Part shown: piece after piece, positions 1-19,987 of the stretch
How the letters are laid out: each line of letters begins with the position of its first letter
How positions within the stretch are numbered: position 1 is the stretch's first letter
NCBI RefSeq assembly: GCF_002886185.1
Contig: NZ_KZ614148.1
Location: 383,806 to 447,805 of the forward strand
Length of the DNA stretch: 64,000 bases
Reading direction: 5' to 3'
Source of the DNA: Salipaludibacillus neizhouensis
GTDB taxonomy: Bacteria > Bacillota > Bacilli > Bacillales > Salisediminibacteriaceae
Translations under genes and position numbers: made by a program
The notes under the pieces: generated by a model
What the model was told of the DNA's origin: nothing
The model's database searches: none
What the model saw: the letters and a program-made list of their open reading frames with translations, nothing else

Positions 1-2
1 AG

Positions 3-1947: not shown

Positions 1948-2057
1948 ATAAGGTGATGAACAGAGATTCGTAATTCTTCCAAACCACCAACCGCGATAAT
2001 AAAGCATCTAAAATAAAAATAAAAGACTCTCTGCAGTTCCATATCACTCTCATCGAA

Positions 2058-2097
2058 TTCTCATTTTTCTCTAAGGTTCTTATCATAATCCTTCTCT
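2058..2097 (+). promoter_or_regulatory. Candidate direct-repeat operator upstream of the second PepSY gene
   Basis: Four TTCTCA/TTCTCT/TTCTTA hexamers begin at 2058, 2067, 2077 and 2092, just upstream of the gene at 2131. Direct repeats about 10 bp apart are typical of OmpR-family regulator sites, so this may be where the partner regulator of the upstream kinase binds. This is inferred from spacing only. Confidence 0.35.
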
Positions 2098-2130
2098 ACA
2101 ATAAAGATATAACCTTAAGAGGAGGAATAA

Positions 2131-3012
2131 ATGATGAAGAAACTTACGATTATTTTAACGACGATCTTTGCTTTAGGAGGTACAACAGCATTGGGAATGG
2201 CAACCACGAATTCAAATGTTGAGCAGGCGGAGCTTCAATCGAATACAGCGGTGGTGGATACAGTAGGCGCGGAGGAAGATAAAACACAATCAGTAACGGA
2301 GAATAATACCAATGTGAGTAAAGATTCTAGCAGTGATAAAATCACTGAAGAAGAAGCGGTGAAGATCGCGCAAAATACGATCGATGGAAAACTTGATGAG
2401 GTAGAATTAGACACAGATGATGGTGTTCAAGTATATGAAGTAGAAATCGATTTTGAAGGTGACGATTATGATATCAAAGTCGATGCCTATACAGGTGAGA
2501 TACGAGAGACGGACGATGATTTATTAAACACTCCAGTAGCTGATGAAGTAAGTATTTCCTTGGAAGAAGCGAAAAAAATTGTGAGTGAATTAGCTCCAGG
2601 CGGAAACATAGATGATGTTGATCTGGAAATGAAAAACTCGCGTTACGTATATGAAATAGAAGTGGAAGTAAATGATGAAGACGGTGATGTGCACATTGAT
2701 GCGGAAACGGGTGAAGTTTTAAAAATAGAAGATGATCTAGAGAAGTTGTTGGAGGGGAATTCAGCCTCAAATGAGCAAAAAAACTCCAGTGAATCAAATG
2801 ATAATGCTTCGAAAGATAGTAAGGGTGAGCAAATTTCCAGTGAGGAAGCAAAGGAAATCGCATTAGCTCATGTTGGGAATGGCAAAGTGGATGACATTGA
2901 GCTAGACAATGAAGATGGATTGCTGCTTTTTGAAGTGGAAGTTGAGCATAATGATGATGATGTCGAGGTCTATATTGATGCGTATACGGGTGAAGTTGTT
3001 TACGTGGATTAG
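2131..3012 (+). CDS. Secreted triple-PepSY protein, YkoI-like
   Basis: The first 25 or so residues form a signal peptide (KKLTIILTTIFALGG...). The mature part is very acidic and holds three PepSY repeats (about residues 70-120, 140-190 and 235-293), each ending in a DAYTGE- or DAETGE-type motif. Serine- and asparagine-rich linkers separate them. B. subtilis YkoI has fewer units, so this is an expanded relative. A GGAGG at 2121-2125 precedes two adjacent ATGs (2131, 2134). It has its own upstream region with candidate operator repeats and ends before a bidirectional terminator. The acidic composition fits a salt-adapted cell. Function beyond the PepSY assignment is unknown. Confidence 0.85.
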   Translation: MMKKLTIILTTIFALGGTTALGMATTNSNVEQAELQSNTAVVDTVGAEEDKTQSVTENNTNVSKDSSSDKITEEEAVKIAQNTIDGKLDEVELDTDDGVQVYEVEIDFEGDDYDIKVDAYTGEIRETDDDLLNTPVADEVSISLEEAKKIVSELAPGGNIDDVDLEMKNSRYVYEIEVEVNDEDGDVHIDAETGEVLKIEDDLEKLLEGNSASNEQKNSSESNDNASKDSKGEQISSEEAKEIALAHVGNGKVDDIELDNEDGLLLFEVEVEHNDDDVEVYIDAYTGEVVYVD

Positions 3013-3129
3013 TAGTTGTGACGGAAATCCGAGCTTAAATGATAGGGCACGGGGTTGAAGTCAAAGTTCTCGACTACTATTTAAAGCTTTTTTCTAAGAA
3101 ATCAAAGTTTCTGACAAGCTAAAATGAAA

Positions 3130-3170
3130 CAATAAGGAGCACACAACTAGACATCGTGTGCTCCTTATTG
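3130..3170. terminator. Bidirectional terminator between PepSY gene and lasso operon
   Basis: A perfect 15-bp stem (3130-3144 with 3156-3170) with an 11-nt loop lies between two convergent genes. It has A-rich and T-rich flanks, so it can end the PepSY transcript and the lasso operon transcript. Confidence 0.85.
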
Positions 3171-3177
3171 TTATTTA

Positions 3178-4968
3178 TCATAACGTAGCTTCCATTTGTT
3201 TCTGTAGTAAAGAATTAAATACACTCTTTTTTTCCTGCGCTAGCTGTTCGAATTCACCGTTTTGAATCACGAACCCATCGTCTAAAACAATGACTTGGTC
3301 TGCATTGCGAATTGTCGACAGCCTGTGCGCAATTACGATAATTGTCATTTTGCCTTTTAAATGATCGAGTGCTTCTTTTATCCGTGCTTCATTTTCGGTA
3401 TCGAGGGCACTTGTTGCTTCGTCTAAAACGAGAATGGAAGGTTTTCGTAAGATAGCACGGGCCAAAACAACGCGTTGTCGCTCTCCACCTGACAGTTTTA
3501 TACCGCGGTCTCCGATAAGGGTATCAAGGCCTTCCGGCAGCTTGCTTACAAAGTCAGCTGCTGATGAGAATTCAAGCGCTTCCCACATTTCATCTTCTGT
3601 AGCATCTGTTTTCACTAGCTGCAAGTTCTCACGGATACTTTCGTTAAAAAGAAACGGATCTTGTGGGACGTAACTAATGGCACGCCGTAAAGAGATAAGG
3701 TTGTCTTTTGAAAGAGGAATCCCATCTATCAATAACTCTCCTTTTTCAGGTTTATTCAACCCCATTACGATATCGATCAATGTGCTTTTTCCTGCCCCGG
3801 AGCGGCCGACAACTGCAGTCATCTGATTGGCTGGAATGGTGACATTGATGTTTTTTAGTGCATATTCCGATTCATTATAACGGAAAAAAATATTTTTGCA
3901 CACAATGCTTTTATCCACTTGAAGCGGTCTAATCTCATGGTCAGCATTTTCAAATTCTACTGCAGATTTACATTCTTCCTGAATGGCAATCACTTCTTTA
4001 AATGCCGGAAGCATGGAGGCAATTTGCTCCAAAGATGATTGAATTCCAGCTACCCGGGGCCAAAGTCGGGAAAAGATAACCGTAATTAATAAAAGTTGCG
4101 CTCCTTGAGCTTGAAACAAATTTACGGATATAAAAATAAATGTGGCGATTAGTAAAGCGGAAGCAACCTTGTAAATCAATTGAGACTTAGTTTTTAACTT
4201 TGTATATTCTACCTGCTCATGCTCCATTCGTTTTGTTATGGAGCGGTACCAGTTCATTCGCGAATCTTCTAAAGTGTTACTTTTTATGTCTTTGATTCCA
4301 TTTATTTGGTCTGTGATCCCACCGAGATAATTTCTTCCTAACTCGTAATTTCTTTGCCCGAGAGCAAGGGATCTTTTAAGGAATGTTCGATTAAAAAAGA
4401 TCAAAATTAACCCGCACGATAAAACAAAAGCAGTGATCGAGGGAGTAAGCCAAAAGGCAATTCCTATTTGAATGATAGTGAAAATAAGAGAAGCAAAAAA
4501 CTGTAAAAAAGCATGGGTTCCTGCACTTGCGCGGGCTAGTTCGGCTGTTAATATATTGATAAGATCAGTCTTTCTGTTTTTAACGAAGAAACGCCAGTTG
4601 GCATGGAGCAGAGAGTCATACGTTTTCACACGCATATCTCGAAAAAAACCGTGTTGTATCTTTGCTTCACGAATCGTAATGTTCCTTTGAAGCACATTTT
4701 GCGCAATACTAATGAATACAAAAATAGCTAAAATTATTGGCAAACCTGTCGTTACAGGAATCCCTTGTAAGAACTCAAAAATGCCAGCGACAGGAGTATT
4801 TCCTGCGTCGATGTCTACGATGCCAGTCATGCTGATCATTGGTATTAAAAGCAGGATGCCAACACCGTCAAGTAAACTAATTAAAATCATTGCCAGGAGA
4901 TTGAAATAGAGAATAGTACCGGCATAGGCATGTATTTGTTTTACGAAATAGAAAACAGGTTTTAACAT
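3178..4968 (-). CDS. Lasso peptide ABC exporter (D protein)
   Basis: A fused ABC exporter half-transporter of 596 residues. The N-terminal half has about six membrane helices. The ATPase half has Walker A GRSGAGKST near 383, the signature LSGGERQR near 490, Walker B ILVLDEATSALD near 512 and the H-loop IAHRLST near 548. There is no N-terminal C39 peptidase domain, as expected when the leader is removed by a separate B2 protein. It is the last gene of the lasso operon, 12 nt after the nucleotidyltransferase gene, and presumably exports the mature peptides and gives self-immunity. It is close in type to the D proteins of paeninodin-like clusters. Confidence 0.88.
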   Translation of the reverse strand: MLKPVFYFVKQIHAYAGTILYFNLLAMILISLLDGVGILLLIPMISMTGIVDIDAGNTPVAGIFEFLQGIPVTTGLPIILAIFVFISIAQNVLQRNITIREAKIQHGFFRDMRVKTYDSLLHANWRFFVKNRKTDLINILTAELARASAGTHAFLQFFASLIFTIIQIGIAFWLTPSITAFVLSCGLILIFFNRTFLKRSLALGQRNYELGRNYLGGITDQINGIKDIKSNTLEDSRMNWYRSITKRMEHEQVEYTKLKTKSQLIYKVASALLIATFIFISVNLFQAQGAQLLLITVIFSRLWPRVAGIQSSLEQIASMLPAFKEVIAIQEECKSAVEFENADHEIRPLQVDKSIVCKNIFFRYNESEYALKNINVTIPANQMTAVVGRSGAGKSTLIDIVMGLNKPEKGELLIDGIPLSKDNLISLRRAISYVPQDPFLFNESIRENLQLVKTDATEDEMWEALEFSSAADFVSKLPEGLDTLIGDRGIKLSGGERQRVVLARAILRKPSILVLDEATSALDTENEARIKEALDHLKGKMTIIVIAHRLSTIRNADQVIVLDDGFVIQNGEFEQLAQEKKSVFNSLLQKQMEATL

Positions 4969-4980
4969 TTCACTTTCCTC

Positions 4981-6162
4981 CTAGGATATTGCATGTTTCC
5001 TCGTTTTCCTCCACCCCCAAAGAAATGGCCGTAACGGAAAGTAAAGAAAATGAAGTTTTTTTGGCAACGGCAGCGTTTTTGCATCTTCTGGGTAGGGATA
5101 TAAAAAGCTTAAAATAAATAGAAGCTTTTGGGATAATGACATTAACGAAAATAAATGACGGCTATGATAACGTGCTGTCTTTTCTGGAACAGGTGTTGTA
5201 TGAAGATTCACCATGTTTTCTAAATAAAAGACAGCATCCTGCGCTAATCTCATTGGCTGTTTCCCTTTTAATAATGGATTTAGAGTTTCATGGATGTGTG
5301 AATTTATAAGGTAGGTTGCTAAGACAATCGATTGTCCACCAACAGAAAGACTTTTCCCTTTTTTGAAAAGTTTACAGACGATTTCCCAATTTACATCTAG
5401 TTTTAATAGTTGATTAATATCTACTAACCACCGCAATCTTGACCAACCGTGACGGCTTCCGTGGGATACGAGAAATACAAATAAGTCTTCTTTCCCCAGA
5501 TAATATACAGGGGAACTTGTGATAGAGGTGATACTTTTTCTGTCCCATAAGTCGTTAAAACTAGGTTCTATCCCTGGTCCAGGATGTAACCGCCAGTGAA
5601 CTTCCAACTTTAACCCTTTTTCAGGATGGATATAAGTGACGTGGTGGTGTCTCCATCGCCAGTCATTAAGAACGGTTTGAATATAGTCATCCTTAGCATA
5701 GCCAAGTTCACTCAGAAGATTGCCGACAGTTTCAAGCGCTTCAATAGGAATGAGAAAATCTAAGTCACTGGAAGTTCTTAGTGACAGATCTCCATACAAT
5801 TCATAAGCCAAATGAGGACCTTTCAGGAAAAGAACACGTATTTGATTCTCGTCTAACAATTGACTGACAGTCTCCATTTCTCGTGTTAAATGGAGCATTT
5901 GGAACGTATTTCTTTGATAATATTGATATAAAGTTTTCGTAACGTTTACTGGTATAACATCATTACACTGCTTTGCTTTCTTGTAAAGGATAGGGTATAG
6001 ACGGTGATGTAGGGATAGGTCAATAAACAACTCCCAATTAATATCTTTAAAAAGTTCATGATAAATTTGATGGGATTCGTCCTGTTGATCTTTTATTAGT
6101 TCAAGAATAAGTGATAACTCCTTTGGTACCTGTTCTAAATTAAGAACAATTTGATTATCCAT
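4981..6162 (-). CDS. Nucleotidyltransferase family protein, lasso tailoring (PadeN/PsmN type)
   Basis: The protein resembles the uncharacterised nucleotidyltransferase family (NTP_transf_5). The active-site region lies near residues 107-135, with FLKGPHLAYELYG followed by R-T-S-S-D-L-D-F, whose acidic pair should bind metal. A second block, RWRHHHVTY followed by LEVHWRLHP, is also typical of the family. In paeninodin/pseudomycoidin-type clusters the homologue sits next to the kinase and is linked to further modification of the phosphorylated C-terminal residue. Here it overlaps the B2 gene by 8 nt and precedes the exporter, so a lasso role is well supported by context. The exact group transferred cannot be read from sequence. 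Confidence 0.8.
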   Translation of the reverse strand: MDNQIVLNLEQVPKELSLILELIKDQQDESHQIYHELFKDINWELFIDLSLHHRLYPILYKKAKQCNDVIPVNVTKTLYQYYQRNTFQMLHLTREMETVSQLLDENQIRVLFLKGPHLAYELYGDLSLRTSSDLDFLIPIEALETVGNLLSELGYAKDDYIQTVLNDWRWRHHHVTYIHPEKGLKLEVHWRLHPGPGIEPSFNDLWDRKSITSITSSPVYYLGKEDLFVFLVSHGSRHGWSRLRWLVDINQLLKLDVNWEIVCKLFKKGKSLSVGGQSIVLATYLINSHIHETLNPLLKGKQPMRLAQDAVFYLENMVNLHTTPVPEKTARYHSRHLFSLMSLSQKLLFILSFLYPYPEDAKTLPLPKKLHFLYFPLRPFLWGWRKTRKHAIS

Positions 6163-6631
6163 AGTTTTCTCCTTCAGAATGTTTCAAAGAGGTTTTATTT
6201 GCAAATATACTAACAACCGTAAATTTTTCCATACCTTCCGAGCCAGAAATATAATAAGGTCCGCTGCGTAACCAAGCATGTGCTGCGAAAGCTCCACTTT
6301 CATCTTTTCCGGTACCGAGGTATAACGTACTTTCAATTTCACGTTTTTCTAACATTTTCATCGCTGCAATAGCTTTTACAAGACATTGACTTTCCCAAAT
6401 TGTGTACCGGCTCATCAAATGAATTGCTTGAGATACTCTGGAAAGTGTTTCCTTATTATTACTATTAGAGGAATACGTCGTTTCCTGCATATGCTCTCCT
6501 AAGGAAGGCGCAATTTTAGAAAAAGGCATTTTTTTAAGAATTCGGGCCCAGCCTAAATATATAAATGCTTCTATTAGTAATCGTTTCATTTTCGAGTCGA
6601 AACTCAAGAATAACCTGATTTTTTTAACCAT
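6155..6631 (-). CDS. Lasso peptide leader peptidase B2 (transglutaminase-like)
   Basis: A small transglutaminase-fold protein of the B2 type, which cuts the leader off the lasso precursor after recognition by B1. The catalytic Cys is in ESQCLVKA near residue 82, and the His in AAHAWLR near 118. I chose ATG 6631 over the GTG at 6634 because it is 8 nt from AAAGGA. The length of about 158 residues fits stand-alone B2 proteins of Firmicutes. It is 31 nt after B1 and overlaps the nucleotidyltransferase gene. It must serve both precursors, as no second copy is present. Confidence 0.88.
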   Translation of the reverse strand: MVKKIRLFLSFDSKMKRLLIEAFIYLGWARILKKMPFSKIAPSLGEHMQETTYSSNSNNKETLSRVSQAIHLMSRYTIWESQCLVKAIAAMKMLEKREIESTLYLGTGKDESGAFAAHAWLRSGPYYISGSEGMEKFTVVSIFANKTSLKHSEGENYG

Positions 6632-6662
6632 CACAGCTGTCCTTTCATCGATTATTGATCTA

Positions 6663-6956
6663 TTATTCTTTCGTCTGAATCAGATCTTCTTTATAGAGCA
6701 TTTCTAAAAATGATAGGACATGTTCTTCACATTGATTTTTATCAACGTCATAGGTGGACATCAGCGTGTTTACTAGACTATCTATTGCTATTGGTTTCTC
6801 GATGAGTTTCCAAATCTCTCCGCCAATATCTCCTAAGTTATAGTATTTTCCGTTATTAATACTTAACATGACCTTTTCGCCATCCATATCACTGACGATG
6901 TTTCCAGGTTTTTGACTGATGAAATGACCAGTCAGAAAATTTTTATTTGTAATCAT
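6663..6956 (-). CDS. Lasso peptide recognition protein B1 (RRE, PqqD-like)
   Basis: A 97-residue PqqD-like RiPP recognition element. Typical features are the beta-hairpin VMLSINNGKYYNLGDIGGEIWKLIE (split around residues 28-52) and the helical end with CEEHVLSFLEMLYKEDLI. RRE proteins bind the leader, in this class through a W/Y-x-x-P-x-L/I-x-x-L-D motif, and deliver it to B2 and the cyclase. Both precursor leaders here carry that motif. The start ATG overlaps the kinase stop codon (ATGA), so the two are translationally coupled. Confidence 0.9.
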   Translation of the reverse strand: MITNKNFLTGHFISQKPGNIVSDMDGEKVMLSINNGKYYNLGDIGGEIWKLIEKPIAIDSLVNTLMSTYDVDKNQCEEHVLSFLEMLYKEDLIQTKE

Positions 6957-7885
6957 ATGCGTATCTCCTTTTTAATTTTTGAAAGTACTAGAGCAGATAT
7001 TTCATTAGCGGTAAAACGAGATGTTGGGCGTTGGATTTGGAAAAGTTCCAACTTATTGACCATAGCCGCACAAGTAGCGAAATGCCATTCCATTAATCCA
7101 GAAGGTTTGAGGAAGAAGTTACGATACGTATGATAAAACAGTGTATGGAATCGTTCCAGGTTTTTAATAGGTTGAATGTCTAATTCTTCGCCTTCAGTTT
7201 TAACTAATTCGAATATACCTGCAAGTGGTAACGATTCAGTTGTAAACTGAGAGAGCACAGGAATAGCAAACTTTGTTTCTCTATCAACAATGGGGCGCAA
7301 GTTTCCTGAATCCATTCCAAACTCATCAAGGCTTTCCTGCCATAGCTTTTGCTGAGGATAGGCCGGTGTTACCATTGGAACATTATCCGGCGTTAAGGTA
7401 ACAGGGATGACATCATCACTAATAAGTTCATAGCCCAGTTTTAACAGAGCAGATGCAGTGGTAGATTTACCGGCGCCAGAGTCTCCAACAATGGCGTATG
7501 CCTTCCCGTCAATTGCTATGGCACTGCCATGTAACGGTAAGATTTTTCGTTGCATTAAGATTGCGCCCATGCAGGTACCTAAGAGGTAGAGGCGGATATG
7601 GTCGTCACTTGCTTGGTCTAGAGGCGATACGACAATGTTACGACCATTTGTAATAGAAAAAATAGCTACATTTGGCATGTGGAACATGATGAGATTTGCC
7701 TTGATGACAAAAGTTTGGTTTGGTTCTGCTAGTTCAGCCCACTGTGCAGTAAGATCGCCTTTTTTTATCACTACGTCTGTATCAATATAATTGGATGTTT
7801 CTTTAAGTAATTCGGGTAAATCGTATTCACTTGAGATAGTTAATCTGAATGCTTTATATATAATCTTTTCAGTTGTTTCAATCAT
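6953..7885 (-). CDS. HPr-kinase-like lasso precursor kinase (PadeK type)
   Basis: The protein has an HPr kinase/phosphorylase-like C-terminal domain with Walker A GDSGAGKST near residue 132, followed by LISDDVIPV, whose Asp pair matches the catalytic region of the family. PadeK from the paeninodin cluster phosphorylates the C-terminal Ser of the precursor. Both precursors encoded here end in Ser, which supports the same reaction. The gene follows precursor 1 across a stem-loop and overlaps B1. It is not the housekeeping HPr kinase, because it lacks that protein's N-terminal domain arrangement and sits inside a RiPP operon. Confidence 0.87.
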   Translation of the reverse strand: MIETTEKIIYKAFRLTISSEYDLPELLKETSNYIDTDVVIKKGDLTAQWAELAEPNQTFVIKANLIMFHMPNVAIFSITNGRNIVVSPLDQASDDHIRLYLLGTCMGAILMQRKILPLHGSAIAIDGKAYAIVGDSGAGKSTTASALLKLGYELISDDVIPVTLTPDNVPMVTPAYPQQKLWQESLDEFGMDSGNLRPIVDRETKFAIPVLSQFTTESLPLAGIFELVKTEGEELDIQPIKNLERFHTLFYHTYRNFFLKPSGLMEWHFATCAAMVNKLELFQIQRPTSRFTANEISALVLSKIKKEIRI

Positions 7886-7911
7886 CTGTTTTGATCCTTT
7901 CTGGTTAATTA

Positions 7912-7939
7912 ACCCTTATACTTTAATAAGTATAAGGGT
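7912..7939 (-). terminator. Intercistronic stem-loop after lasso precursor 1
   Basis: A perfect 10-bp inverted repeat (7912-7921 with 7930-7939, 8-nt loop) lies between the precursor and kinase genes. No T-tract follows it on the minus strand, so it is more likely an mRNA-stabilising or attenuating hairpin than a full terminator. It would give more precursor than enzyme message. Confidence 0.6.
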
Positions 7940-7950
7940 ATTGGGAGCCG

Positions 7951-8103
7951 TTAACTTAAACAGCTAGCATTAGACCGTCCATCGTGAGTCTCACTTTTTC
8001 CATCTGAAACATCAAAACAATCAGCATTCGCATTACCTGGACCATTCATTGTCATACTTATATCAAGAACATCTAGCACTGGTGCAGACCATGTCTTTTT
8101 CAT
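7951..8103 (-). CDS. Lasso peptide precursor 1 (50 aa)
   Basis: A small gene between the cyclase and kinase genes with a strong ribosome binding site (GAGGGGGTGA). The leader MKKTWSAPVLDVLDISMTM has the W-x-x-P-x-L-x-x-L-D recognition motif and the conserved penultimate Thr (T18). By alignment with paeninodin, cleavage after M19 gives a 31-residue core. It starts NGPGNANAD, so Asn1 would be joined to Asp9 in a nine-residue ring. The tail has Cys at core positions 10 and 29 and ends in Ser, the expected kinase target. Cleavage one residue later would give Gly1 and an eight-residue ring; the Thr at -2 rule favours Asn1. Confidence 0.88.
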   Translation of the reverse strand: MKKTWSAPVLDVLDISMTMNGPGNANADCFDVSDGKSETHDGRSNASCLS

Positions 8104-8128
8104 CTGTTCACCCCCTCTCCATCCCAAG

Positions 8129-10072
8129 TCATGGTGTACTCTTAATAAAACGGTAAAGAATTAAGTAATGTGTTAATTTTTTAAAGTCATGATCGATGAT
8201 CAGTTCAGGATGAGGTTGGTTAGATAGCTTCTTTATAATATCTTTGAAGGCGTCTATATTAATTAGTTCAGCTATCCTATCATCCATAAACATCTGTGCA
8301 ATTTCTTCCGTAAAAGAAGACCAGTTGCTTGCCATTCGATGAATGATATCTCCTCCTTGAAAACCTCTACTTATTTGATTTAGCCTTACTTTGTCTGGCA
8401 ATGCATTTTTAGTAACACGGCGTAAAAAGGAACGTTCCAATCCATCTTGGACATACTGTTCATCTGGTAAAGCTAAACAAAATTGTATAACTCTTAAATC
8501 ATTTGTTGGATCTCGATCCCATACTCCGTAGCGAAGACTCATTTTCGTATTAACAACCCCACTTTTGTTCCATGGGTAGAGTTGCTGATAATATTTTTTT
8601 CGGTAGTCTGTTAGATTTGTCACAGAGTCGTTTATATTCATTCCATTACCTAGAAGTTCTTCATATACATTTGTTTTTCTAGCAAATTCACCATTAATCA
8701 TTGAAGTGAATGGACTATCTTGTTTTCTTTTTCCCCATTGTGAGATCTTAGGAAATGCTTTTTTTGCAATAAAGGGTACAACAACTTTTTTTCCGGTATT
8801 AAAGTTCTGACAGTAAACTCCTAGTTCCCGATATAGACTGATCCATTTAAGTTTATTCATGAGGGTTGTGTAGTAGCAGTATGTTAAATTTAATGATCCC
8901 CAAGAGATCGAATGATTTCCTCTTGCACCATTAAGCATGATCTTAATCCCTTTGGACTGTGCTTCTTCATTAATTCCTTTGAGCCAGAAGGTGTTCTCAA
9001 AAAACTTATAAGGCATTTCCATCAATTCTAGAAAGTCATCTACTTCTGTATACGGACTTTTGCCAGGAAAACTCATGTAATGGTCATTGATATTCCCTAC
9101 GTGTGCGACCGTTTCTTTGATAAAGGGTGATTCATCGGCTTGATAATAAGAAGGGGTCCAGTCTTGGAAATCTTTTTCTGGGATGTAGCTATACGTATGT
9201 AGTTGTTTATGATCTTTCTTTAATAGATTTGCTGCAAAACTTACAACCGTTCCAGAATCTAATCCACCGCTTAAATGAGAGCCTACTTCACCATGTGTTC
9301 TAATACGGTCACTCACTGCTCTCCCGAAAATGTCCCTAAAGGCTTCTTCGTACTCTTCATCTGAATTTAATTTCAACTTCTTATCCACATTAATCATGCA
9401 ATATCTTGAAAGAGTGATTCTTCCATTCAGTACAGTGATGCTATGAGAAGGAGGTATTTGTTGAATGTCTTTGTATACTGTTGCTTTCATGTCTGCGGCT
9501 TCGACCATTGTTGGTATAACTATAAATTGGGCTAACCAATCTTCATTCAGCTTTTTTGTTATATATGGTAATGAAAAGAGTGATTTTATTGTGGTAGAAA
9601 ACGCAAAATGATTGTTCTCATTGAAATAATAAAGCGTTCGAGACCCTGAAAAATCTCTTGCTCCAAAAAGTTGCTGTTTTCTCTCATCCCATATCATGAA
9701 AGCAAAATCACCGATTAAGTGTTTCGGAGTCTCTTCTTGCCATTTTGCATAGGCTAATAATATTAACTGACTATCAGGCATGATTTTTCTTTGGGCTTGA
9801 TCTACTTGTAACGTGTTAAATAATTCTCTACGATTATCAATAATCGCATCGGCAGCTATCACTAATTGTCTTTCGGAGTCATAATAAGGGACAACCTCAC
9901 CAACTGATTCCGGAGTGATCCATTGTGCATGACATCCTAGAAAAACAGTATCTTTTTTCCATATATCAATAGCATCAGCAGGGAATTGCTTAAAGGAGTC
10001 CATTAAGCTTCTAATATATTCACTATTTATCGGCTCTCTGTTAAAGTGGATAAGACCAGTAATTGCGCTCAT
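8129..10072 (-). CDS. Lasso cyclase C1 (asparagine synthetase B-like)
   Basis: The protein is built like AsnB: an N-terminal glutaminase-like domain and a C-terminal synthetase domain with the ATP-pyrophosphatase motif SGGLDSG near residue 264. It begins MSAITGL, so the Cys2 nucleophile of true class II amidotransferases is replaced by Ser. That is usual for lasso cyclases, which activate the ring Asp as an AMP ester and close the macrolactam instead of making asparagine. The gene is 25 nt upstream of precursor 1. It is clearly related to the cyclase at 10554, with long shared blocks such as FLGCHAQWITPESVGE. Confidence 0.9.
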   Translation of the reverse strand: MSAITGLIHFNREPINSEYIRSLMDSFKQFPADAIDIWKKDTVFLGCHAQWITPESVGEVVPYYDSERQLVIAADAIIDNRRELFNTLQVDQAQRKIMPDSQLILLAYAKWQEETPKHLIGDFAFMIWDERKQQLFGARDFSGSRTLYYFNENNHFAFSTTIKSLFSLPYITKKLNEDWLAQFIVIPTMVEAADMKATVYKDIQQIPPSHSITVLNGRITLSRYCMINVDKKLKLNSDEEYEEAFRDIFGRAVSDRIRTHGEVGSHLSGGLDSGTVVSFAANLLKKDHKQLHTYSYIPEKDFQDWTPSYYQADESPFIKETVAHVGNINDHYMSFPGKSPYTEVDDFLELMEMPYKFFENTFWLKGINEEAQSKGIKIMLNGARGNHSISWGSLNLTYCYYTTLMNKLKWISLYRELGVYCQNFNTGKKVVVPFIAKKAFPKISQWGKRKQDSPFTSMINGEFARKTNVYEELLGNGMNINDSVTNLTDYRKKYYQQLYPWNKSGVVNTKMSLRYGVWDRDPTNDLRVIQFCLALPDEQYVQDGLERSFLRRVTKNALPDKVRLNQISRGFQGGDIIHRMASNWSSFTEEIAQMFMDDRIAELINIDAFKDIIKKLSNQPHPELIIDHDFKKLTHYLILYRFIKSTP

Positions 10073-10286
10073 GATTTCCTCCAGATCAAAAGTGATTATA
10101 ACTGAAAAAAAAATTTAATTCATTTAAGTTATCCATAATAACGAGCAGAAGAGATTACTTTCATAAATAATGTCTTATTAATTATAATTGCGAAAAGTAA
10201 TTCGTTATATGGAACAAATTGTGATGGTTTTACAGTTTTTTTGTGTTGTCAACTAGTTAAATAGGTAAATCTTGAATTATAAAAGG

Positions 10287-10320
10287 GAAGCCCCTAAAAT
10301 TGATAAAATATAGAGGCTTC
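10287..10320 (-). terminator. Stem-loop between the two cyclase-precursor modules
   Basis: A 10-bp near-perfect hairpin (10287-10296 with 10311-10320, one G-T pair) lies downstream of precursor 2. On the minus strand it is followed by a short CCCTTTTAT stretch, so it may be a leaky terminator that limits read-through into the second module. The rest of 10073-10407 holds no gene I can support and is AT-rich; a TATAAT at about 10098 could be a weak internal promoter. Confidence 0.5.
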
Positions 10321-10407
10321 AGTTAGTAATTAAATGAAATGTGCTAAATAGAATAAAACAAAATAAGTATTGTAGAAGATTACTAACTACCATCAATTGT
10401 AATACGA

Positions 10408-10539
10408 TTAACTAAATGTCAATTGATCCTTTGGTGTTTGGTCCGGAAAATCATTATCAGTAAAATTACCATCACCTTGTAACATAGTTTTGTTAACATC
10501 AAGAATGTCTATTTCGGGCTTTTGCCATTGCTTCTTCAT
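10408..10539 (-). CDS. Lasso peptide precursor 2 (43 aa)
   Basis: A second precursor gene, 14 nt after cyclase C2, with the same ribosome binding site as precursor 1. The leader MKKQWQKPEIDILDVNKTM aligns residue for residue with the first, keeping W5, P8, L13-D14, T18 and M19. The predicted 24-residue core begins LQGDGNFTD, placing Asp at ring position 9 and Leu at position 1, and it ends in Thr-Phe-Ser. There is no Cys. The terminal Ser again fits the shared kinase. Leu1 is unusual, as most lasso peptides start with Gly, Ala, Ser or Cys. Confidence 0.88.
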   Translation of the reverse strand: MKKQWQKPEIDILDVNKTMLQGDGNFTDNDFPDQTPKDQLTFS

Positions 10540-10553
10540 AATCTCACCCCCTC

Positions 10554-12491
10554 TCAGTTGAAATTTTTAACAAACCGGCTTATAATTATGCTTCGCATTA
10601 AAATTTTATAATCTGTATCAGTTGCATATTCTACTCTAGGACCTTTTTTAACCTTTTCTAGAGCAGTGTTCAAAATGTCTCTATCAAGAAACGCCAACAT
10701 TCTATCGTCTTTTGTTAGAGCGTCCACTTCACTAACAAATGAACCCCAATACGGTTTCATGCGGTGAACCCAGTCAGCACCTTGTACCCCATGGATTCGC
10801 TGATTCAATCTAACTTTGTCGGGTAATATGTCTTTTGTTGCTCTTCTAATTAAAGCCCGGTCCAATCCTTGTTGAACATATTGATCATCTGGAATTGATA
10901 AACAAAACCGTATTACTCTTAAATCATTTGTAGGATCACGTTTCCATAACGAATGACGTAAAGATAGTTTACAAGTAAAACTATTTCCTGTGTTCCACGG
11001 AAAAAAGTCTTCAAAAAGTCTCTTTCTTTCCTTGTAAATATCGTTTGTAGTGAACCAACCCGTTTCGCCAAGACCAGATTTTTTTAATTTATTGAATACA
11101 TCAGTGCGTTCAGAAAATTTATGATTGATTATTCTTGGCAGTTTCCAAGGGATATTATTAGAGAATCGGTTTAGTACTGGGTAACCTATGCATGCAATAT
11201 GGGGTAAGTTACGTAATCTTGATCCACCAATTTTCCTGCTATATTTATTTAATTCTTGGTAAAGCTTTACCCATTTTAATTTTTTCATCAGAATAGAGAA
11301 ATAATTAAAGGCAGAACCCCATGAAATGGTGTAATTACCTCTATCACCGTTAAGTAAAATCCCTACTCCTTTTTCTTCAGCAACCTCAAACATTCCCTTC
11401 AACCAAAAAGAGTTTTCAAAAAATTTATAAGGCATTTCATTAATTTCTAGAAAGGTATCTATTTCTGAATAAGAATTTTCCCCTTCAAAATCTAAATAAT
11501 GATCTGAAATACCTCCAACTTGATGAACAGTTGATTTAATAAATGGTCTCTCATCGGCCAATAAATGGTTTGGTGTAAAATCTATAAAGTCTCTTGGTGG
11601 GATATAACTAAATGTATGTAATTGTTTATTTTCTTTTCGCATTTCTTTTGCTGCAAATCCAACTACTGCACCTGAGTCTAATCCACCACTTAATTGTGAG
11701 CCGACATTATGATGTGTTCGTAATCTTGCCTTAACTGCTTTTTGGAAGACTTCTTGGAATGCCTCCACATATTCTTCGTTTGAATTTAATTTTATTTTTT
11801 TGTCTGGGTACAAGGAACAATATCTTGTAAGCTTTAATTGATCTAAATATATTGAGAAACTATGAGCTGGTGGTATTTGATAAATTTTTTCATAAGGAGT
11901 AGTAATTGCGTCTACTGTATCAATGTTTCCAGAGATTGCGAGATATTCAGCAAGCCATTCTTCATTTAGGTTTTTGGGAATGTAAGGCAGAGATAATAAT
12001 GGCTCTATCGTTGTACAAAAAGAAAACTTATTTTGATTGAAATGATAATAAAGAGTTCGATACCCCGCGTGATCTCGAGCGCCAAAAAGCTTTTGTTTCT
12101 TTTCATCCCACAGTACGAATGCAAAATCACCAATTAGATATTTAGGGGACTCCTCACCCCATTTATCATAAGCGAGTAACATTAATTGACTATCTGTCAT
12201 TTTTTTTCTGTCTTCTCGGTCAACTTGTAATAGATTAAATAACTCAGAACGATTATCTATAATCGCATCAGCTGTTATAGCTAACTGTCTTTCATAATCA
12301 TAGAAGGGGAGCAGTTCTCCTACTGATTCCGGAGTTATCCATTGTGCATGACATCCTAAAAAAATATTTTGTTTTTTCCATATTTGAATATCATTTGCTG
12401 GAAACTGGAGTAAAGATTCCATTATTGCATCAATATTATCTTGTGATACAGGTTCGTCATTTGTATGAAGAATGCCAGCTATTGCACTCAT
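10554..12491 (-). CDS. Lasso cyclase C2 (asparagine synthetase B-like)
   Basis: First gene of the operon and a paralogue of the cyclase at 8129, of nearly equal length (645 versus 647 residues). It begins MSAIAGI, so it also lacks the glutaminase Cys2, and has SGGLDSG near residue 266. AGGAGG lies 5 nt before the ATG. It is followed directly by precursor 2, so the cyclase-precursor pair appears to have been duplicated and then diverged. Keeping a private cyclase suggests each enzyme is matched to its own core sequence, while leader recognition (B1/B2) is shared. Confidence 0.9.
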   Translation of the reverse strand: MSAIAGILHTNDEPVSQDNIDAIMESLLQFPANDIQIWKKQNIFLGCHAQWITPESVGELLPFYDYERQLAITADAIIDNRSELFNLLQVDREDRKKMTDSQLMLLAYDKWGEESPKYLIGDFAFVLWDEKKQKLFGARDHAGYRTLYYHFNQNKFSFCTTIEPLLSLPYIPKNLNEEWLAEYLAISGNIDTVDAITTPYEKIYQIPPAHSFSIYLDQLKLTRYCSLYPDKKIKLNSNEEYVEAFQEVFQKAVKARLRTHHNVGSQLSGGLDSGAVVGFAAKEMRKENKQLHTFSYIPPRDFIDFTPNHLLADERPFIKSTVHQVGGISDHYLDFEGENSYSEIDTFLEINEMPYKFFENSFWLKGMFEVAEEKGVGILLNGDRGNYTISWGSAFNYFSILMKKLKWVKLYQELNKYSRKIGGSRLRNLPHIACIGYPVLNRFSNNIPWKLPRIINHKFSERTDVFNKLKKSGLGETGWFTTNDIYKERKRLFEDFFPWNTGNSFTCKLSLRHSLWKRDPTNDLRVIRFCLSIPDDQYVQQGLDRALIRRATKDILPDKVRLNQRIHGVQGADWVHRMKPYWGSFVSEVDALTKDDRMLAFLDRDILNTALEKVKKGPRVEYATDTDYKILMRSIIISRFVKNFN

Positions 12492-12534
12492 TGTTACCTC
12501 CTAATTAACGCGGAATGTATATGATAATTGGTTT

Positions 12535-12610
12535 ACTATACAGGTGAATGAGGTTCTTGTAAAAGAACAACACATACTTTTTTTAGTTCTTGACGTACGT
12601 TATAAAGAAC
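12535..12610 (-). promoter_or_regulatory. Lasso operon promoter with SinR-like inverted repeats
   Basis: On the minus strand TTTACA (12558-12563) and TATAGT (12535-12540) are 17 bp apart, a good sigma-A promoter for the cyclase C2 gene. The -35 box lies inside an inverted repeat, GTTCTTGTAAAAGAAC (12553-12568). Its halves match the SinR site GTTCTYT in a 7-2-7 layout, apart from one base in the left half. A second, wider repeat (GTTCTT 12586-12591, AAGAAC 12605-12610) lies further upstream. Binding would block the promoter. The remaining gap to 12899 holds no gene; a stem (12863-12870 with 12880-12887) lies behind fdhD. Confidence 0.55.
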
Positions 12611-12899
12611 ATATTATGAATAATTTACCACCCCCGATTATTAAAGTCAACTTAAATTTAATAATCAAATATGTTGTATTTTGAGCGTAGGACAAATCAT
12701 ATAGGATTATCCTTTTTATGTTGACGTCGTGAACCGTAATTTCATTGAAAAACGACAATTATTTTATTGTTACTATGATGGATGAGAGAATTGGAGGGGG
12801 AAGTGGGGGGATATATTGGATAGCGAATAAAGTTGCTACCAGCTGAGGATAAGCGTCCCACCGGTATTATTTCTAGACTATAATACCAGCAAGATTTTA

Positions 12900-13694
12900 T
12901 TATTCTAAAACAATTCTTTCAGGATGGGAATAGACATTAAAGGAACTACCGCGAATAAAACCAACCGCGGTAATGTTTAGGTCTTCTGCAAGTTTAATGG
13001 CTAAGTCGGTAGGAGCGGACTTAGATAGAACGATTCCAACGCCGATTTTAGCTGCTTTTGTAAGAACTTCAGAGGAAATACGGCCACTAAAAACCAGTAC
13101 CTTATCTCTTACCGGAACATTGTTCAAAATGCTATATCCATATAACTTATCGAGCGCGTTATGGCGACCTATATCTGTACGGCTTACAATCAATTCCTCA
13201 TTTGAGCAAAGGGCGGCATTGTGAACTCCGCCTGTCCCCTTAAAGACAAGGCTGTCCTCTTGCATTTTACGCATTAACTGGATACATTGTTCTGCTGTAA
13301 TAAATGATTTTATCGTAGAAGTTTTTGTTGTTTTTGCATCGTTTTGGAAATAAAATTGTCTGCTCTTGCCACAACAGGAGCCAATAAAACGCTTTGAATA
13401 GGATTGTTGATTCATAACTTTTTTATTATAAAGATCTATGTATGCGAACCCCTTGTCTTCATCAATTTCAAGTGTCTGAATATCATCTTTAAAACGAAGG
13501 ACACCTTCCGATGCCAGAAAACCAACAATCATTTCCTCAAAATTAGTCGGTGTGCACACCATTGTCGCAAATTCTTCATTGTTTACATGAATAGTTAAAG
13601 GGAATTCTGTTACAATATCATCTTCCAGCGTTTGAAAAGCGCCATCTTTATACTTTACAATCTGCCTTTTCAGGCACACTTCGTGTTGAGACAT
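12900..13694 (-). CDS. fdhD: Formate dehydrogenase accessory sulfurtransferase FdhD
   Basis: FdhD moves sulfur from a cysteine desulfurase to the molybdenum cofactor of formate dehydrogenase and is needed for its activity. The family's cysteine loop is seen as GSCCGKSRQF near residue 103, and the later blocks FKGTGGVHNAALCS, SRTDIGRHNALDKLYG and VFSGRISSEVLTKAAKIGV are typical. ATG 13694 is well spaced from AGAGGTGG; the upstream GTG at 13703 overlaps that site. The gene is divergent from the OFA transporter and near the molybdoenzyme at 16200, its likely client. Confidence 0.92.
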   Translation of the reverse strand: MSQHEVCLKRQIVKYKDGAFQTLEDDIVTEFPLTIHVNNEEFATMVCTPTNFEEMIVGFLASEGVLRFKDDIQTLEIDEDKGFAYIDLYNKKVMNQQSYSKRFIGSCCGKSRQFYFQNDAKTTKTSTIKSFITAEQCIQLMRKMQEDSLVFKGTGGVHNAALCSNEELIVSRTDIGRHNALDKLYGYSILNNVPVRDKVLVFSGRISSEVLTKAAKIGVGIVLSKSAPTDLAIKLAEDLNITAVGFIRGSSFNVYSHPERIVLE

Positions 13695-13909
13695 TAGTTC
13701 CACCTCTTTTCAAAACTATAATAAAAAGCTACCTTAGATAAAGTATCATATATGCTATTAGATTATGATTATAAACAGTTATTTTCCAAGAGACAAGTGT
13801 CATGAATTTCCCCTTTTTCAAATGTGTCTAAATAATGAATGGTATTAAAATTAACTATTGTAACTGCTTACAAAAGAAGGTATGATTTAGATAAATTCAT
13901 AGAATTGTC

Positions 13910-14074
13910 ACATTTAAGATGCGAGACAGCGAACCTGTCGTCCGGTTTAAATGTTACAACTCTAAAAACGATTACAGTTAGCATAAAGTAGCGAACCTGC
14001 TTAAAACTAACCGTTGCGTTCTTTTTGAAATGGAGCTCTCATTCATTTTAAAAAGTATTAGCAACGGTTTTTTG
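13910..14074 (+). ncRNA. Structured leader with two similar hairpins and a terminator (riboswitch-like)
   Basis: Two hairpins of the same design precede the OFA transporter gene. The first (13910-13954) has an outer stem ACATTTAA/TTAAATGT, an internal loop and an inner stem GACAG/CTGTC with loop CGAAC. The second (13977-14011) has outer stem GTTAG/CTAAC and inner stem AAGTAG/CTGCTT, again with loop CGAAC. A long terminator follows (CCGTTGC near 14011-14017, GCAACGG 14061-14067, then T6). The 3' arm of the second hairpin overlaps the 5' arm of the terminator, so the two are mutually exclusive. This is the layout of a transcription-attenuating RNA sensor. I cannot assign it to a known class. 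Confidence 0.6.
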
Positions 14075-14201
14075 TTTGGAAAGATAAAGGAGATTGCTTC
14101 ACGCAACACTTTTCAAGGAGGAAATCCCTTAAGCTAGTGGATAATTCTAGCTGTAATTAGTAGATAGCAGTTTATTTTAATTAGGAGAAGGAGTGAAGGT
14201 A

Positions 14202-15446
14202 ATGGGGAAAACAAAGAATCGTTGGCTGATTGCTCTTGCAGCAGTTGGTATTCACATTTCAATTGGTTCCGTATATGCATGGAGTGTATTTACAAACCCT
14301 TTAGCAGAACAATTTGGCTGGAGTTTAAGTGAGATCTCCTTAACTTTTAGTATTGCAATTGCGTTTTTGGGTCTTTCAGCTGCATTTATGGGACATTTTG
14401 TGGAAAAGTATGGACCCCGCATTTCGGGGCTTGTTGCAGCTACCTTTTTTGGAATAGGTATTGTCGGAGCAGGATTTGCTGTAGATATTGGTTCGCTTTG
14501 GCTATTATACCTTACATACGGGGCCTTAGGAGGTATTGGCTTAGGTATCGGTTATATTACACCAGTATCGACGCTTGTAAAATGGTTTCCTGACCGTCGA
14601 GGTCTTGCAACAGGATTAGCAATTATGGGATTTGGTTTTGCAGCAATGATTGCAAGTCCGATTATGGCTTCTTTAATCAATTCAGTTGGAATTTCGAACA
14701 CGTTCTATATTCTTGGAATTAGCTATTTTATTATAATGATAGGATCTTCTTTATATCTTGAAAGACCACCAGAAGGTTACATGGAAGGGGCTGCTGTTGC
14801 GAATAAAAAAACGCAAGCAGACCTTTCACAATTAACTGCAAATGAGGCAGTGAAAACGAAACGATTCTGGTTTTTATGGACCATGTTATTTATTAATGTG
14901 ACGTGTGGGATAGCAATTTTAGCTGTTGCGTCACCAATGGCACAGGAAATCGCTGGTCTGTCAGCAGTAGCGGCGGCGACAATGGTTGGTATTATGGGCT
15001 TCTTCAATGGTGCAGGGCGTCTGGCATGGGCTTCTATTTCCGATTACATTGGACGTCCAAATGTGTATACAACATTTTTTGTCCTCCAAATTGGCGCTTT
15101 TTTTATGCTACCATCGATCTCACACGCTATAGCATTTCAAGTAGTTTTGTTTCTAATCATCACCTGTTATGGAGGTGGGTTCGCTTCGATACCGGCTTAT
15201 ATTGGAGACTTATTTGGCACAAAGCAACTAGGGGCCATTCACGGATATATCCTGACTGCTTGGGCTCTTGCTGGTTTAGTCGGACCAATTGTTGCAGCTC
15301 GGGTTCGAGAAGTGACTGAAAGCTATGCGGCCACTCTGTATATCTTTGGTGGAATGTTTATTGTAGCGCTCGTTGTATCACTGATTATTCGCATGGACAT
15401 TAAACAATTAAGAGAAAAAAATGCTAATGAAACACTAGCAGGTTGA
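14202..15446 (+). CDS. OFA-family MFS transporter (oxalate/formate antiporter-like)
   Basis: A 12-helix major facilitator of 414 residues in the OFA group. The N-terminal signature HISIGSVYAWSVFTNPL and the block GIGYITPVSTLVKWFPDRRGLATG are typical. Members exchange oxalate and formate or carry other small monocarboxylates; the substrate here is not certain, but formate is favoured by the neighbouring fdhD and formate dehydrogenase-like gene. ATG 14202 is preceded by AGGAGAAGGAG; the GTG at 14193 lies within that site. Expression is probably set by the attenuator-like leader upstream. Confidence 0.85.
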   Translation: MGKTKNRWLIALAAVGIHISIGSVYAWSVFTNPLAEQFGWSLSEISLTFSIAIAFLGLSAAFMGHFVEKYGPRISGLVAATFFGIGIVGAGFAVDIGSLWLLYLTYGALGGIGLGIGYITPVSTLVKWFPDRRGLATGLAIMGFGFAAMIASPIMASLINSVGISNTFYILGISYFIIMIGSSLYLERPPEGYMEGAAVANKKTQADLSQLTANEAVKTKRFWFLWTMLFINVTCGIAILAVASPMAQEIAGLSAVAAATMVGIMGFFNGAGRLAWASISDYIGRPNVYTTFFVLQIGAFFMLPSISHAIAFQVVLFLIITCYGGGFASIPAYIGDLFGTKQLGAIHGYILTAWALAGLVGPIVAARVREVTESYAATLYIFGGMFIVALVVSLIIRMDIKQLREKNANETLAG

Positions 15447-15502
15447 CATTTTATATTCTTACTACTAATCTTTTATTATAAACGTATCGAGATTGGAGTA
15501 TC

Positions 15503-15868
15503 ATGGGCAAATATGAAGCAGAATTCAGCAACTTAGTTCGGGCATTCAGGAAAAAACATATGGGAAAGGGCCCAAGCAAAATCAGTACAACTTTTTGCAA
15601 GAACTGGGCTATATGTGAAATGGAAGGGAATTTGTCACCTATAGAAAAGTTTATTGCAAGTGCCGAAGATGGGAAAACAATGCTACGTTCGGCTAGAACT
15701 GAAATGGTGAAAGAAATGTATCGTAAAAACCGCCCAATTGAAATGGAAGAGTTTTTAGGATATAACTTTGTTGAACTATTCGTAGATATTGATATAGAAC
15801 AAGATAAAGGAATGTCTATCTTTGTTTTTGATGGTAACCTGGAAGAAAAGTTTACTAAATTAAAATAG
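15503..15868 (+). CDS. DUF2294 (MpsC-like) domain protein
   Basis: A 121-residue soluble protein of the DUF2294 family, recognised from AFRKKHMGKGPSKI near the N-terminus and the following LSPIEKFIASAEDGKTML. Its biochemical role is not established; family members often lie beside formate dehydrogenase genes in Bacillaceae, as here between the OFA transporter and the molybdoenzyme. It starts 56 nt after the transporter behind GGAG and is followed by a terminator. Confidence 0.82.
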   Translation: MGKYEAEFSNLVRAFRKKHMGKGPSKISTTFCKNWAICEMEGNLSPIEKFIASAEDGKTMLRSARTEMVKEMYRKNRPIEMEEFLGYNFVELFVDIDIEQDKGMSIFVFDGNLEEKFTKLK

Positions 15869-15906
15869 TTAGGTTTGGCACTTGGCAGCGTTCCTGTTTA
15901 AGACTC

Positions 15907-15951
15907 AACCACCGATGCATTTTTTGATTAAAATGTGCGGTGGTTTTTTTA
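15907..15951 (+). terminator. Rho-independent terminator after the DUF2294 gene
   Basis: Stem AACCACCG (15907-15914) pairs with CGGTGGTT (15938-15945), followed by a T-run. It separates the transporter/DUF2294 transcript from the molybdoenzyme gene. Confidence 0.85.
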
Positions 15952-16063
15952 AAATTACAGTATCGATGAGTGTTTATTTTGAAAAGTTATCGCTTTCGTC
16001 CTACGGTGAAGTCCCGAGCCAAAAGGTCAAATTATATTTTTAACAAGAAAAGATTTAATAAGT

Positions 16064-16179
16064 TGACAGCTATCTTTAAGCCACACGCATCAAGGGAAGT
16101 TCGCCCCTGGATGCCTAAAAGATGGTGGCCTTAAAGATCACGCTGTATATAATAAAAGACGGCTATGCCGTTTTTCTTA
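16064..16179 (+). repeat. Structured intergenic repeat, copy 1
   Basis: A 116-bp element starting TGACAGC and ending in a small hairpin plus TTTTTCTTA. It folds into nested stems: ACAGC with GCTGT, ATCTTTAAG-CCAC with GTGGCCTTAAAGAT, a third stem GCATC...GGATGC, and a separate 3' hairpin ACGGC-TAT-GCCGT followed by T5. The same layout recurs at 18558, 24056 and 26299 with compensating base changes. This copy ends 20 nt before the start codon of the molybdoenzyme gene, where its 3' hairpin could act as a terminator or attenuator. Confidence 0.75.
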
Positions 16180-16199
16180 AAATACGAAGGGGTGTAAAG

Positions 16200-18557: not shown

Positions 18558-18698
18558 TAAGAAAAACGGCATAGCCGTCTTTTATTAAATACAGCGTCAG
18601 CTTCCACCGCCCCCGAGTAGCACCTACGAAGTGTGTGTAGGTGCTACTCGAAAGGATGTGGGTTTCCCTTGTTACGCGCGGTGTGAAGGTAGCTGCCA
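18558..18698 (-). repeat. Structured intergenic repeat, copy 2 (inverted, enlarged)
   Basis: A 141-bp copy on the minus strand, directly after the molybdoenzyme stop codon. The ends match copy 1 (hairpin ACGGC-ATA-GCCGT and the ACAGCGTCAGCTT arm), but the inner arm has gained a perfect 14-bp stem, CGAGTAGCACCTAC and its complement, around 18614-18650. Next to the gene its 3' hairpin reads as a bidirectional terminator. With copy 1 it brackets the molybdoenzyme gene as an inverted pair. Confidence 0.72.
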
Positions 18699-18753
18699 AT
18701 TTTATAAATTCTTATCTCTTAAGAAAAATCATAAAGTTAAAGCTTATTGGACA

Positions 18754-18800
18754 ATAAAAGAAACAAGGATGACTTTAAAAGTCATCCTTGTTTCTTTTAT
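18754..18800. terminator. Bidirectional terminator, 23-bp perfect palindrome
   Basis: Bases 18754-18776 are the exact complement of 18778-18800 around a single central base, with A-rich and T-rich ends. It lies between the molybdoenzyme gene and the convergent siderophore transport operon and can terminate both. Confidence 0.85.
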
Positions 18801-18861
18801 TATATATGGCTTTTAAGAGTATCTCAAAGTTTTGTTAACATGATAGAGTCAGTCTCTACTA

Positions 18862-19932: not shown

Positions 19933-19987
19933 GCTGGTAACACTCCTCTTTAAAATTTGTTTGTTTACTTCCCACACACAGAAACGT

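Follow-up and report, generated by a model that had tools for sequence, protein, structure and literature searches.

A candidate two-slot lasso peptide cluster of the paeninodin type in Salipaludibacillus neizhouensis

The clusters for the lasso peptides paeninodin and pseudomycoidin are among the closest described relatives of the gene cluster analyzed here, which lies on the minus strand of a 64,000-nucleotide stretch of Salipaludibacillus neizhouensis DNA (contig NZ_KZ614148.1, positions 383,806 to 447,805; hereafter the window). Its gene order is C1-A1-C2-A2-K-B1-B2-N-D, a paeninodin-type lasso cluster in which C stands for an AsnB-like cyclase, A for a precursor, K for an HprK-like kinase, B1 for a PqqD-like leader-binding protein, B2 for a transglutaminase-like leader peptidase, N for a nucleotidyltransferase-like protein and D for an ABC exporter. 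Paeninodin of Paenibacillus dendritiformis (the PadeA family, NF033524) is alike in precursor family, C-terminal Ser, HprK-like kinase, split B1 and B2 proteins and exporter; the window differs in having two cyclases and two precursors, the second with two Cys and Asn1 in its core. The pseudomycoidin cluster of Bacillus pseudomycoides is alike in its kinase and its nucleotidyltransferase-like PsmN. It reportedly has one precursor and one cyclase, whereas the window has two of each. According to a review, kinases of this kind act on the C-terminal Ser of the precursor before closure, and PsmN, a relative of N, is linked to a hexose on the phosphorylated Ser.

Lasso clusters can encode several precursors with divergent cores and identical leader motifs (PMC13381572), and a Rhodococcus cluster with two predicted lasso peptides has been described (PMC11433410). 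In the accessible parts of both papers leader-handling enzymes are shared among precursors, as here, and no second cyclase is mentioned, whereas in our loci each precursor type has a cyclase clade of its own. PMC13381572 also states that paeninodin-type B1 proteins favor Trp leaders, and that clusters for linear polyphosphorylated peptides have a kinase, a nucleotidyltransferase, an exporter and an RRE in common with paeninodin-type clusters but differ in lacking a cyclase and in having a signal-peptidase-like leader peptidase and Tyr leaders. We found no two-cyclase lasso cluster in the open-access literature as searched by titles and the starts of abstracts, with key subscription papers outside that search, and the Neobacillus clusters in Figure 3B of PMC11705953 could show one. 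The two-cyclase arrangement appears to be a new form of paeninodin-type lasso cluster, with earlier mention possible in the paeninodin, pseudomycoidin and RODEO papers. Based on its sequence, we think it likely that the cluster has two slots, each yielding one lasso peptide with its own cyclase, while the remaining enzymes are common to both.

Gene content and recurrence of the two-cyclase layout

The two small precursor genes proposed in the initial annotation were confirmed: their leaders align (W5, P8, L13-D14 and T18-M19 in both), both cores have Asp9, and both products pass the NF033524 model. The WxxP leader and the Thr at -2 of paeninodin-family precursors are found in A1 and A2, as is the acidic residue at core positions 7-9 that is typical of lasso peptides (Asp9). 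A1 has the leader MKKQWQKPEIDILDVNKTM and the core LQGDGNFTDNDFPDQTPKDQLTFS, without Cys and ending in Ser, and starts 14 nucleotides past the end of C1; A2 has the leader MKKTWSAPVLDVLDISMTM and the core NGPGNANADCFDVSDGKSETHDGRSNASCLS, with Cys10, Cys29 and again a C-terminal Ser, and starts 25 nucleotides past the end of C2. A GGGGGTG stretch, which on our reading of the sequence could bind the ribosome, precedes each of them. The separate B1 and B2 genes of the paeninodin family are present, as is the pairing of an HprK-like kinase with cores that end in Ser. The kinase matches HprK models weakly (TIGR00679 33.6 bits against 240, PF07475 31.6 against 33.3) and is 45-65% identical to the kinases that occupy the same place in the relatives compared.

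For both C1 and C2 the lasso cyclase model NF033535 is the best model (418.9 and 417.9 bits). PF00733 and PF13537 are matched in both, and both keep the ATP motif SGGLDS. At the 87 columns that are at least 97% conserved among 133 cyclases (L112, L113, L114 and L115_T2 excluded), C1 has one departure (S142A) and C2 has none; a degenerate cyclase was considered and rejected, with no sign of one at these columns. Among solved relatives of the cyclases, we found distant amidotransferases and asparagine synthetases only, and an Rfam scan of window positions 1-20000 gave no match. The genome carries these two cyclases plus two partial matches at 25% identity and no other close one. The earlier statement that B1, B2 and the kinase occur once holds genome-wide, with a single B1, a single B2 and one full-length K found, a second K match being weak (38% over 55 residues).

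The initial annotation also proposed a search for the same gene order elsewhere, and the order is recurrent. Two cyclases are found in three of the eight genomes of the genus and one in one of the eight. At the level of the family, 15 of 35 genomes have a cyclase match at E 1e-80 or better, and in 8 of these 15 (G000, G002, G005, G017, G018, G019, G026 and G029) two cyclases are side by side. Across the order, where at most three candidate cyclases per genome were scored, a close cyclase is found in 90 of 397 genomes, 26 of which list two; the cyclases are less than 2 kb apart in 22 of the 90, spanning 8 families and 11 genera, and of the other four genomes listing two, one has them separated by 27 kb, one by about 5 kb and one on different contigs, while in the fourth the two are pieces of one broken gene. 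The 79 contig loci compared come from the top of 193 relatives ranked by likeness to C1 and are no random sample; 18 of them are tandem, with hosts that include Halalkalibacter, Virgibacillus, Halobacillus, Alkalihalobacterium, Evansella, Litchfieldia, Neobacillus and Aquibacillus.

With only loci longer than 9 kb retained and cyclases of identical sequence merged, there were 34 distinct tandem loci, two pairs of which (L024/L037 and L150/L155) are near-duplicates. The complete order of the window is found in 32 of them, 31 by script and one (L165) by eye, its A2 having Leu instead of the leader Pro and being recognized by eye; in the other two, N is placed upstream. Because it recurs across 34 distinct loci, the layout is more than chance.

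In a set of 398 genomes from the class, 38 match an A2 profile at E 0.001, and most of these matches span the leader and the first core residues only. Gene content was viewed for 6 of the 38, and among the window, G117, G716, G685, G573 and G036 a two-Cys A2 is present only in the window and G117, G053 being known from its locus. No orphan two-Cys A2 was found among the strong matches: in a set of 40 relatives, the 8 genomes matching at E 1e-8 all have it directly behind C2. In L162, a complete C-A-K-B1-B2-N-D cluster with an AGPG core has a further C-A pair at its far end, this one of the two-Cys type. In G036, a precursor-like small open reading frame with a paeninodin-type leader and without Cys (L204, 5546-5764) has no cyclase or other lasso gene that we could find within the 12 kb around it.

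Two core types and two cyclase clades

Slot-1 cores are Cys-free in all 34 tandem loci, and slot-2 cores have exactly two Cys and Asp9 in all 34. The first residue of slot-1 cores is A in 22, L in 8, Q in 2, G in 1 and S in 1, and their first nine residues occur in 30 different versions; in slot 2 it is N in 26, G in 6, L in 1 and T in 1, with 15 different versions, the commonest of which, NGPGNANAD, occurs 17 times and has no match in the open-access literature. Mean pairwise identity is 0.26 for whole slot-1 cores and 0.51 for slot-2 cores, and 0.24 and 0.75, respectively, for the first nine residues. Since the cyclases of both slots are equally divergent across the tandem loci (mean identity 0.563 for C1 and 0.576 for C2), the contrast between the slots is not one of age. 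Among 21 loci chosen by the motif NGPGNAN..DCFD, a choice that biases the nonsynonymous count low, codons 1-13 of the A2 core have 1086 silent versus 124 nonsynonymous differences in 2730 codon pairs. Some relatives in the C1 clade have cores like AGPGxxxxDxxQxDPDExxHYS, which we take to resemble the core of paeninodin. All 68 precursors of the tandem loci have the C-terminal Ser, the Thr at -2 and the Trp leader, as would be expected were both slots served by the same kinase, B1 and B2. Two slot-1-type precursors (L048, 10956-11084, and L205, 5021-5149) end in Cys (..LTFC) despite a kinase gene.

The two Cys of the A2 core family may hold a tail-tail disulfide, and the mass predicted for A2 in the initial annotation, the peptide minus water, stands with the amendment that it may then be 2.016 Da lower. 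Computed monoisotopic neutral masses are 2681.188 for the A1 lasso and 2761.154 once a phosphate is added, and 3104.258 for the disulfide-bonded A2 lasso and 3184.225 once a phosphate is added; a hexose would add 162.053. A single disulfide wholly within the tail is the mark of class IV lasso peptides (LP2006, pandonodin and felipeptins) and is the predicted state of A2, which has two tail Cys; A2 differs from them as a PadeA-family precursor beside a kinase, with Cys10 abutting the ring Asp9. The first Cys of slot-2 cores is at position 12 in five loci, at position 8 in one (L158) and at position 10 in the others. In L158 this places it inside the ring, where a bonded pair would be of the ring-tail, class III-like kind. 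The A2 tail, mostly ETHxGRSNASC, is conserved and has one His. A Cys right after the ring Asp and this one-His tail are unusual for the family, and together with the shifts of the first Cys to 8 and 12 they would fit a reading in which slot 1 yields a lasso peptide and A2 something else, either an unthreaded macrolactam or a peptide whose Cys bind a metal or are linked to another molecule. We consider this unlikely, as A2 keeps the defining precursor features (Thr at -2, Asp9 and the Trp leader), and ordinary lasso enzymes accompany C2 at most of the single loci of the two-Cys type.

Slot-1-type precursors of relatives also vary in the position of the ring acid. All 135 precursors keep the same spacing between the leader Trp and Thr(-2), and 46 of the 135 cores have Asp10 and no acid at 9 (35 of these have none at 7-9 at all). 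No two-Cys core is among these 46, which include the cores next to the cyclases of L014, L025, L046 and L052. The 9/10 label needs 2 changes on the cyclase tree, where 50 shuffles gave at least 34. A review gives lasso rings as 7-9 residues, and the Asp10 cores could possibly be either ten-residue rings or cores whose leader is cut one residue later.

The cyclases fall into two deep clades. Window C1 and its own C2 are 52-53% identical, while C2 is 67-68% identical to the C2 of another genus. The initial annotation spoke of a duplicated cyclase-precursor module; the two modules stand, and a recent tandem or local duplication was rejected, with C1 and C2 in separate deep clades. We compared 137 distinct cyclases, 34 from the first slot, 34 from the second and 69 that are single, a label defined per locus (L076 counts as single though its genome has a second cyclase). 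First-slot cyclases have Cys-free precursors in 34 of 34 cases, and second-slot cyclases have two-Cys precursors in 33 cases by script and in 1 by eye; at the 69 single-cyclase loci there are 59 Cys-free, 8 two-Cys and 1 one-Cys precursors, and 1 locus where no precursor was found. Over the 135 rows with a precursor, the distinction between two-Cys and other precursors needs a single change on the cyclase tree when the one-Cys row is pooled with the Cys-free rows and L113 and L165 are uncounted. The clade split has support of 96.5 (SH-aLRT) and 100 (bootstrap) on an 86-row set without L037, L155, L112, L113 and L114 and with 16 Cys-free single rows. On the kinase tree (99 rows), separating two-Cys or tandem loci from Cys-free single ones needs 8 changes, so a match of the label this tight is peculiar to the cyclase. 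As the tree of the cyclases has no root, we make no claim on which clade is older.

Cyclase and core also covary in slot 1. The identity of core A1 tracks that of C1 (rho 0.41, permutation p 0.002, the lowest reachable with 500 permutations; 0.45 when controlled for K and 0.47 when controlled for C2) and does not track that of C2 (rho 0.02) or K (-0.04). Within a locus, the A1 and A2 leaders resemble each other slightly more than they do across loci (0.592 versus 0.571, p 0.029), as a shared B1 would favor. No signal of gene conversion between C1 and C2 within loci was found (largest z 2.3 over 20 stretches; L112, L114 and L115_T2 left out of the column statistics).

These comparisons bear on the possibility that the cyclases are redundant, with either one closing both cores and the second copy serving gene dosage or being the remnant of a cluster that lost its own enzymes. 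Both window cores have Asp9, the leaders are alike, and single-cyclase loci of either type occur, all of which such redundancy would allow. Against this, both cyclases are intact at conserved columns, they have not been homogenized, their clades fit precursor type with one change, and each slot has kept its precursor type throughout the tandem loci. We regard redundancy as quite unlikely.

Cassette exchange, shared enzymes and locus arrangement

Between the sister species Virgibacillus litoralis (L018) and V. subterraneus (L088), the C1-A1 pair is replaced between matching flanks: the DNA is 86-91% identical upstream and 91% identical from about the start of C2 on, and C2 and D are 89% and 96% identical, while C1 is 62% identical and the A1 cores are unrelated. 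A second pair of loci from one genus, L027 and L110, has C1 at 95% and D at 98%, yet C2 at 70% and K at 77%. Here residues 1-280 of C2 are 88-100% identical and the rest 31-72%, the divergent tract ends inside K, and the A2 forms differ (GGPG..DSYC versus NGPG..DCF). By its sequence this C2 resembles a naturally formed hybrid cyclase whose precursor moved along with it, and a contiguous tract may account for the pattern without selection. We also compared C2 segments, leaving out L111, L112, L114 and L115_T2. The Cys10/Cys12 subtype needs 3 changes on the tree of residues 421-647, 5 on each of those of residues 1-215 and 216-420, and 4 on both the residues 1-420 tree and the full-length C2 tree. 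A location of C2 specificity in residues 421-647 is suggestive at best, since there are only 5 Cys12 rows and 30 shuffles reach 3-4.

Topology tests covered 32 loci (L037 and L155 left out) under a simple LG model. For the C1 data, the C2 topology is rejected by 893 log units and that of K+B2+D by 722; for the C2 data, the margins are 228 against the K+B2+D topology and 839 against that of C1; and for the joined K+B2+D data they are 2397 against the C1 topology and 1446 against that of C2. This suggests that all parts of the cluster have mixed histories, with C1 the most separate and C2 nearer the shared enzymes. That C1 has been exchanged independently of C2, and that each clade is also found alone with a full enzyme set, speak against C1 and C2 acting as a pair, whether as a heteromer or in sequential steps, on both precursors. 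Such a pair would explain why the two lie side by side in 22 of the 90 cyclase-bearing genomes of the order; we nevertheless consider it very improbable.

Two genomes have the slots apart. In G117, C1-A1-B1 lies 27 kb from C2-A2-K-B2-N-D, and the genome carries a single B1 and a single B2. In G776 (L076, Neobacillus novalis), the C1 cluster is complete and a C2-A2-K-N-D set lacks B1 and B2; the cyclases are 42 kb apart, and this genome too has one B1 and one B2. If slot 2 works in these genomes, it uses the B1 of slot 1 and, in G776, also its B2. These split loci agree with the window coordinates and with the relatives that each precursor stands behind its own AsnB-like cyclase, as originally proposed. 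On the G117 contig (L153/L036 and L200), the genes after C1-A1-B1 look, from a reading of the starts of open reading frames, like capsule or exopolysaccharide genes.

The features of the window cluster are listed in Table 1. The initial annotation placed both modules in one operon that shares all other enzymes. The sharing is upheld by our data, while the single operon is unproven because the gap between A1 and C2 carries a terminator-like hairpin. This hairpin has a z of -2.07 (3 of 100 shuffles fold equally well), and a simple terminator scan found sites no more commonly than in shuffles (6 versus 5.7), that is, at chance level. Some terminator-like hairpin, in part weak, was found in 31 of the 34 A1-C2 gaps of the tandem loci with a lax scan that had no shuffled control. 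Another terminator-like hairpin, with 20 pairs, follows D at 3172-3128. Beyond D, a histidine kinase and two PepSY-domain proteins are encoded on the opposite strand (15-3012). At the other end, genes for FdhD, an MFS transporter, an MpsC-type protein and a formate dehydrogenase-like molybdopterin oxidoreductase (12900-18557) adjoin the cluster and are apparently unrelated to it.

Table 1. Features of the two-cyclase cluster, in window positions
Feature	Position	Strand	Remark
C1, slot-1 lasso cyclase (AsnB-like), 645 aa	10554..12491	-	SGGLDS intact
A1, precursor of slot 1, 43 aa	10408..10539	-	NF033524 42.0 bits, cut-off 27
A1-C2 gap, 335 nt, with terminator-like hairpin	10073..10407	-	hairpin -14.2 kcal/mol, then CUUUUAUA
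C2, slot-2 lasso cyclase (AsnB-like), 647 aa	8129..10072	-	53% identity with C1
A2, precursor of slot 2, 50 aa	7951..8103	-	NF033524 55.2 bits, cut-off 27
K, HprK-like kinase (C-terminal Ser kinase by family)	6953..7885	-	weak HprK matches; position in relatives
B1, PqqD-like leader-binding protein (RRE), probably common to both slots	6663..6956	-	NF033536 139.1 bits, cut-off 80
B2, transglutaminase-like leader peptidase, probably common to both slots	6155..6634	-	NF033537 106.7 bits, cut-off 33
N, nucleotidyltransferase-like protein, probably common to both slots	4981..6162	-	PF14907
D, ABC exporter, probably common to both slots	3178..4968	-	gene identity by sequence

A two-slot model and its significance

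The two-slot reading is supported by gene content and order, conserved residues, the pairing of slot and core, the concordance of cyclase and core, cassette exchange, and the presence of one B1, one B2 and one K. From these we infer every catalytic step, the disulfide, export and the biological role. K would phosphorylate the C-terminal Ser of both precursors, B1 would capture A1 and A2 through their WxxP leaders, and B2 would cleave after Thr(-2)-Met(-1). C1 would then close the Leu1-Asp9 ring of A1 and C2 the Asn1-Asp9 ring of A2, in whose tail Cys10 and Cys29 would probably pair in a class IV-like disulfide. The phosphate is probably decorated by N, and both peptides would leave the cell through D. 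We propose that the cluster retains two cyclases because each recognizes its own core, whereas the leaders are handled in common.

Several points weigh against this model. Both cyclases score under the NF033535 cut-off of 525, and Asn1 and Leu1 are unusual as first core residues. The correlation between core A2 and C2 is weak (rho 0.17, p 0.086; 0.27-0.28 when controlled for C1 or K), which is what is expected of a near-constant core and is no proof of dependence. In the topology tests the joined K+B2+D data reject even the kinase's own tree, by 287 log units; every alternative tree being rejected, it is the sizes of the differences alone that speak for a more separate history of C1. Pairing by position and contiguous exchange may reflect linkage and not enzyme specificity.

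Within the two-slot model, slot 1 would diversify through the exchange of whole C1-A1 cassettes while slot 2 would stay nearly constant. It is possible, although we hold this tentatively, that the whole is a constant-plus-variable lasso system, in which a slot 2 with a near-invariant two-Cys core across genera is combined with a slot 1 that exchanges cassettes differing even in ring size (ten residues), the peptides perhaps acting together.

Matched cyclase-core pairs inside one cluster, with all else equal, offer a direct test of specificity by swaps and hybrids, and natural exchanges of cassettes, and of the C-terminal part of a cyclase with its precursor, complement them. The slot-1 cassettes are a ready library of cores with their cyclases. 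The conserved two-Cys core, a peptide family for which we found no described product, points to a conserved target or function.

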